Shown: one piece after another, positions 51,359 through 54,019 of the stretch | Position numbering within the stretch: position 1 is the first letter of the stretch | Layout of the letters: each line of letters opens with the position of its first letter | Assembly (NCBI RefSeq): GCF_016745095.1 | Contig: NZ_CP067087.1 | Span: 2,840,501 to 2,904,500 of the forward strand | Source of the DNA: Croceicoccus sp. YJ47 | Lineage (GTDB): Bacteria > Pseudomonadota > Alphaproteobacteria > Sphingomonadales > Sphingomonadaceae | Direction: 5' to 3' | DNA length: 64,000 nt | Translations under genes and position numbers: made by a program | The notes under the pieces: model-generated | The model's input: the letters and a program-made list of their open reading frames with translations, nothing else | The model's database searches: none | What the model was told of the DNA's origin: nothing

Positions 51359-54019
<2,661 letters not shown>

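Follow-up and report, generated by a model that had tools for sequence, protein, structure and literature searches.

The alaS gene described here raises the question of whether a bacterium carries a stop codon inside the gene for its AlaRS, or whether this stop exists only in the assembled sequence. The gene lies in a window of 64 kb (the whole stretch of DNA that was analysed), which corresponds to positions 2840501-2904500 of a genome, G000, that consists of a single contig of 3,353,209 bases and has a completeness score of 99.91%. A sequence-only reading of the window had claimed that the AlaRS frame stops at codon 778, after the editing domain and ahead of C-Ala, and then continues as an intact C-Ala domain up to 54019, leaving a choice between a base-call error and a synthetase that is truncated, split or dependent on readthrough. 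On the evidence set out below, we put at about 95% the probability that the TAG is a systematic, motif-bound consensus base-calling error and not a codon of the cell; this artefact is probably linked to DNA modification, and the AlaRS of the strain is most likely ordinary and full-length.

Comparisons were made with the 13 other genomes of the genus set (14 with G000), mainly with the nearest relative, G009 (96.3% identity to the window over 64 kb), and with G002 (91.0%). For G000 against G009, the stretch compared comprised the window and 400 kb upstream of it (464 kb, with 430,611 bases aligned), and 321 genes were scanned at gene level. The features concerned are collected in Table 1.

Table 1. 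Location of the features discussed in the text (window positions, unless a locus or contig is named)
Feature	Position	Strand	Remarks
alaS reading frame with TAG at codon 778	51359..54019	+	catalytic, editing and C-Ala domains
Apparent TAG	53690..53692	+	Glu codon in 13/13 genus relatives
CGGCCTAGG, altered CGGCCG-type motif enclosing the alaS TAG	53685..53693	+	
C-Ala (DHHA1) coding part 3' of the apparent stop	53693..54019	+	
Second altered motif inside alaS	51994..52000	+	codon 214 Tyr; Asp in 13/13 genus members
Second in-frame TAG, same kind	6908..6910	+	small gene with tRNA-binding domain; relatives' frame 6872-7243
NotI-family nuclease and C5-cytosine methyltransferase	L222:399-2607; G000:C1 about 1142.7-1144.9 kb		

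The alaS Frame and Its Relatives

The frame opens with an ATG at 51359, meets the TAG at 53690-53692 and, after 108 more codons, ends with a TGA at 54017-54019. Codons 1-777 match PF01411 and PF07973 (catalytic and editing domains), and downstream of the stop there is a match to PF02272 (DHHA1, E 5.6e-14). Thus, all three domains are found in one frame, which the TAG interrupts in the assembly sequence, and both the placing of the stop between the last two of these domains and the intact continuation of the frame are borne out. The same can be said of the length, which had been called normal: 777 + 108 gives 885 sense codons, and the three closest copies (L003-L005) have 886 amino acids. In domain order, length and sequence this gene is like that of an ordinary bacterial AlaRS, with intact relatives that are 98-99% identical to it at the amino-acid level across residues 1-776; it differs from it in the apparent TAG and in the altered codon 214, and also in residue 815, which is unique to G000 in the genus and is not at a GGCCG-type motif. 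One AlaRS locus was found in this single-contig genome, with no second copy at E <= 0.001.

The codon at site 53690 was read in 109 aligned loci (29 from the search of 60 relatives described below, plus the best 80 of 587 from another search, not deduplicated), and in this set it is a sense codon in all 109, encoding Glu in 65, Arg in 17, Lys in 15, Gln in 5 and other residues in 7. Accordingly, a stop before C-Ala that has been kept in a lineage appears in 0 of these 109 loci, which include the best 80 of 587. The suggestion that a GAG (Glu) codon would fit the site agrees with the genus, as the codon is GAG in G009 and GAA in G002. The C-Ala part lies within a long open frame in 13 of 13 genus relatives. 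In a search of 60 relatives, 58 gave an AlaRS match, and an internal stop in the main match was seen only in G036, whose gene is split over contigs. As a separate observation, a genome of the same family with 100% completeness (G015) gave only a divergent AlaRS (G015:C1:1361298-1363082), with 40-49% identity where the usual gene shows 68-79%; it matches as two pieces of one open frame of 611 amino acids, much shorter than usual.

Taken at face value, the assembly describes a genuine nonsense mutation, which would leave an AlaRS of 777 residues with catalytic and editing domains and no attached C-Ala or, perhaps, a two-piece AlaRS whose C-Ala is re-initiated from the GTG at 53723 or the ATG at 53735. 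Such a truncation need not be lethal, since residues 1-700 of the E. coli AlaRS are described as aminoacylating much like the wild type (PMC4649089). A mini-AlaRS without editing and C-Ala domains is reported to exist in nature (PMC10036535). If the stop were real, the absence of C-Ala would be common to that mini-AlaRS, as there described, and to the enzyme of G000, which would then be a bacterial AlaRS in nature without attached C-Ala; unlike the mini-AlaRS, alaS of G000 has an editing domain and an intact C-Ala coding region. Apart from the base in the assembly, which reads TAG, nothing found here favours a truncated enzyme. Moreover, the C-Ala codons after the stop speak against it: relative to G009, 14 of their differences are silent and 3 change an amino acid, the numbers for G002 being 23 and 4, and these mainly silent differences give no sign of long decay. 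Together with the evidence of the two following sections, this makes a genuine nonsense mutation very unlikely.

One-Way Differences Bound to a Short Motif

The 9-mer that encloses the alaS TAG is also found, identical, around the TAG at 6908, where both G009 and G002 have GAG. The recurrence of this TAG-bearing 9-mer in a gene unrelated to alaS is a further point against a nonsense mutation in alaS. Across the 464 kb, GGCCTAGG occurs, both strands counted, 7 times in G000 (6 places, one palindrome) and 0 times in G009. More generally, 46 of the 1768 alignable GGCCG[AG] sites of G009 read GGTAGR, GGCTAR or GGCCTA in G000, and in the reverse direction 2 of 1651 sites of G000 read in this way in G009. 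The differences are thus confined to a short motif and run one way relative to a close relative. Sorted by the base that precedes the motif, the altered sites are 32 of 421 after C, 9 of 432 after T, 5 of 490 after G and 0 of 425 after A. A base-call error, one of the options left by the sequence-only reading, is therefore supported, although not as a random slip: the alaS site is one of 43 motif-type places in the 464 kb.

Counts of two-base changes from G009 to G000 point in the same direction, with 32 changes of CC to TA against 6 in reverse, and 23 of CG to TA against 8. GCCGGC sites show the same tendency (54 against 8, each palindromic site being entered once per strand), and 11 other palindromes had no comparable excess, the largest being that of TGCGCA (9 against 6). 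Of the 8 altered places in the window, 7 have altered bases at which G002 fully shares the reading of G009; at the remaining place (42770), G002 shares it at one of the two bases. Two facts were counted against an artefact, namely that the majority of CGGCCG sites are unaltered in G000, and that TGGCCG and GCCGGC sites are also affected.

That the motif at the centre of the changes is probably methylated in the strain would be expected if they were genuine mutations at a methylated hotspot. Were deamination of 5mC at work, however, single changes of C to T should result, and these are balanced (GGTCG 28 against 30, GGCTG 41 against 34), whereas the excess consists of double changes to TA. The bias towards one contig strand and the lack of selection are also unlike mutation, and a hotspot is hardly credible as the origin of these changes.

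Contig Strand, Selection and the Meaning of TAG

By contig strand, the 43 distinct altered places divide into 35 on the plus strand, 5 on the minus strand and 3 on both, with 1024 and 891 GGCCG[AG] sites available for the comparison. Over the whole chromosome of G000, CGGCCTAGG is present in 22 forward and 3 reverse copies, 2 of the 3 reverse copies overlapping forward ones. Forward copies are found in every quarter of the contig, which speaks against replication asymmetry, because such asymmetry would flip between chromosome arms. Since biology does not follow the strand of a contig, this bias points away from a biological origin. In each of the 13 relatives the number of copies is between 6 and 16, mostly on mixed strands, exceptions being G002 (6 and 2) and G004, whose 7 forward and 0 reverse copies were counted against an artefact. 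A second product, CGGCTAGG, gives 24 and 13 copies in G000, 15 and 18 in G009, and 12 and 16 in G002; its skew in G000, weaker than that of CGGCCTAGG, was counted likewise.

No selection is evident at the 37 altered places that fall in scanned genes, as 4 are silent, 28 missense and 5 nonsense. Background codon differences in the same genes are 10508 silent, 2769 missense and 22 nonsense, so that silent changes are in marked deficit at the altered places (Fisher p about 1e-18); the alterations are independent of codon frame and selection. In 5 of the 37 cases an in-frame TAG is produced. A site that lies in a motif altered one way throughout the assembly, with a strand bias and no selection, is not what a genuine nonsense mutation in alaS would lead one to expect.

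A different possibility is that the strain makes a full-length AlaRS by reading TAG as sense, through a suppressor tRNA, recoding or programmed readthrough. In its favour one could cite that conserved genes of G000 contain several in-frame TAGs, of which five lie at the GGCCG motif. Recoding and suppression were rejected: no tRNA with a CTA anticodon is among the 44 ARAGORN-readable of 45 tRNA hits (a survey that may be incomplete, as tRNA-Ile(GAT) and tRNA-Ala(TGC) are not among the hits), G000 has a gene for release factor 1, and TAG is the stop of 45 of the 321 scanned genes, 40 of which end with TAG in G009 too. Furthermore, the changes occur irrespective of frame, most of them being missense. 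As to a structure that might promote readthrough, the RNA that follows the alaS TAG is not unusually structured (z -0.61). A sense TAG can thus be given scarcely any weight, and the notion of a truncated, split or readthrough-dependent synthetase is not supported. Among the minor observations of the tRNA survey is a weak tRNA-like hit at G000:C1:106836-106906 (31 bits), not called by ARAGORN, whose anticodon region is, by eye, CCC-like and not CTA.

The total numbers of in-frame stops in the 321 genes of each genome are similar, 22 in G000 and 18 in G009, which was counted against an artefact; both lists contain ORF-end and alignment noise. It is in the kind of stop that the two lists differ. 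Of nine TAGs listed for G000, five are in GGCCTAGG (one of these on the opposite strand), two in GGCTAGG, one in CGGTAGAG and one elsewhere; of six listed for G009, one is in GGCTAGG. One of the cases in G000 is GGCTAGG against GGCAAGG in G009, with no GGCCG site there.

A Modification System as Candidate Cause

The restriction-modification genes of G000 offer a candidate for the origin of the error. C5-methylase matches are three in this genome, two of them full length, and one belongs to locus L222, where a NotI-family nuclease (PF12183 at 399-1433, E 4.3e-102) adjoins a DNA methyltransferase gene (PF00145 at 1375-2607) that overlaps the end of the nuclease gene. Among the 14 genomes of the genus, only G000 has a NotI-family nuclease, and no solved relative of it was found by sequence at E 0.01. 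The cutting site of NotI is GCGGCCGC, and that of EagI, a related enzyme, is CGGCCG; CGGCCG is the putative site of the system in L222. The NotI-type methylase is quite likely the specific cause of the artefact.

A second C5 methylase, solitary in appearance, lies beside a tRNA-Arg(CCG) gene at L134:1767-2741 (G000:C1 about 603.2-604.2 kb). Its nearest sequences in the PDB are the HaeIII and HhaI methylases, and one might guess that it is a source of the GCCGGC changes.

The course of events that we propose is as follows. The methyltransferase beside the NotI-like nuclease would modify CGGCCG; native DNA would have been sequenced with long reads on a platform sensitive to modification, nanopore being the likeliest; and the signal, being shifted, would have been miscalled, the error outlasting polishing. 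What the assembly shows is TA-bearing strings (GGTAGR, GGCTAR, GGCCTA) in place of GGCCG[AG], above all of CGGCCG, with one contig strand carrying most of them; the strain would make an ordinary full-length AlaRS.

There are precedents for errors of this class. Nanopore-only bacterial assemblies have been described with an excess of mismatches at GCAGC or GCTGG that goes with particular modification systems and is left after polishing (PMC10687267), and poor nanopore calling has been described at Dcm sites (PMC6591954). The case of G000 resembles the modification-mediated errors presented in PMC10687267 in its mismatches confined to a short motif, in the candidate modification system that the strain carries and in the persistence of the errors in a polished consensus. 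It differs from the cases described there in its CGGCCG-type motif (and GCCGGC), its TA products and its contig-strand bias, and in that platform and modification are here deduced.

As biology, then, the alaS stop probably means nothing. Its value is as a warning that a single-contig genome, 99.91% complete, can hold motif-bound false stops and substitutions, essential genes included, to which completeness scores are blind. Conversely, the pattern of errors reads out the motif that is likely modified and draws attention to restriction-modification genes as its possible cause.

Quality of the Assembly outside the Motif

A generally poor assembly was considered as well and is not supported, as substitutions in the window outside the motif look normal, with no general excess either of substitutions or of missense changes, a result that was also counted against an artefact. 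Codons specific to the window comprise 130 missense and 703 silent differences; the corresponding numbers for G009 are 120 and 673. G-to-T changes are not in excess in the window (49 against 53). Net frameshift flags in the 321 genes of each genome number 26 in G000 and 22 in G009, with no clear excess, many of the flags being at ORF ends or reciprocal.

In comparison with both relatives, single bases have been lost from G runs at 11995, 18084 and 42758, in genes or at their ends, the loss at 18084 affecting a small gene that has an open frame in G002. These losses, together with one at 33374, fit the homopolymer errors of long reads. The last of them concerns an apparent fusion at 29854-33777, in which a thioredoxin domain is joined to a UvrD/AddA-like helicase-nuclease. 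In both relatives the frame stops at 33380, and a G run near 33374 is short of one base in the window, for which reason this fusion, judged from the sequence comparison, is probably another assembly error.
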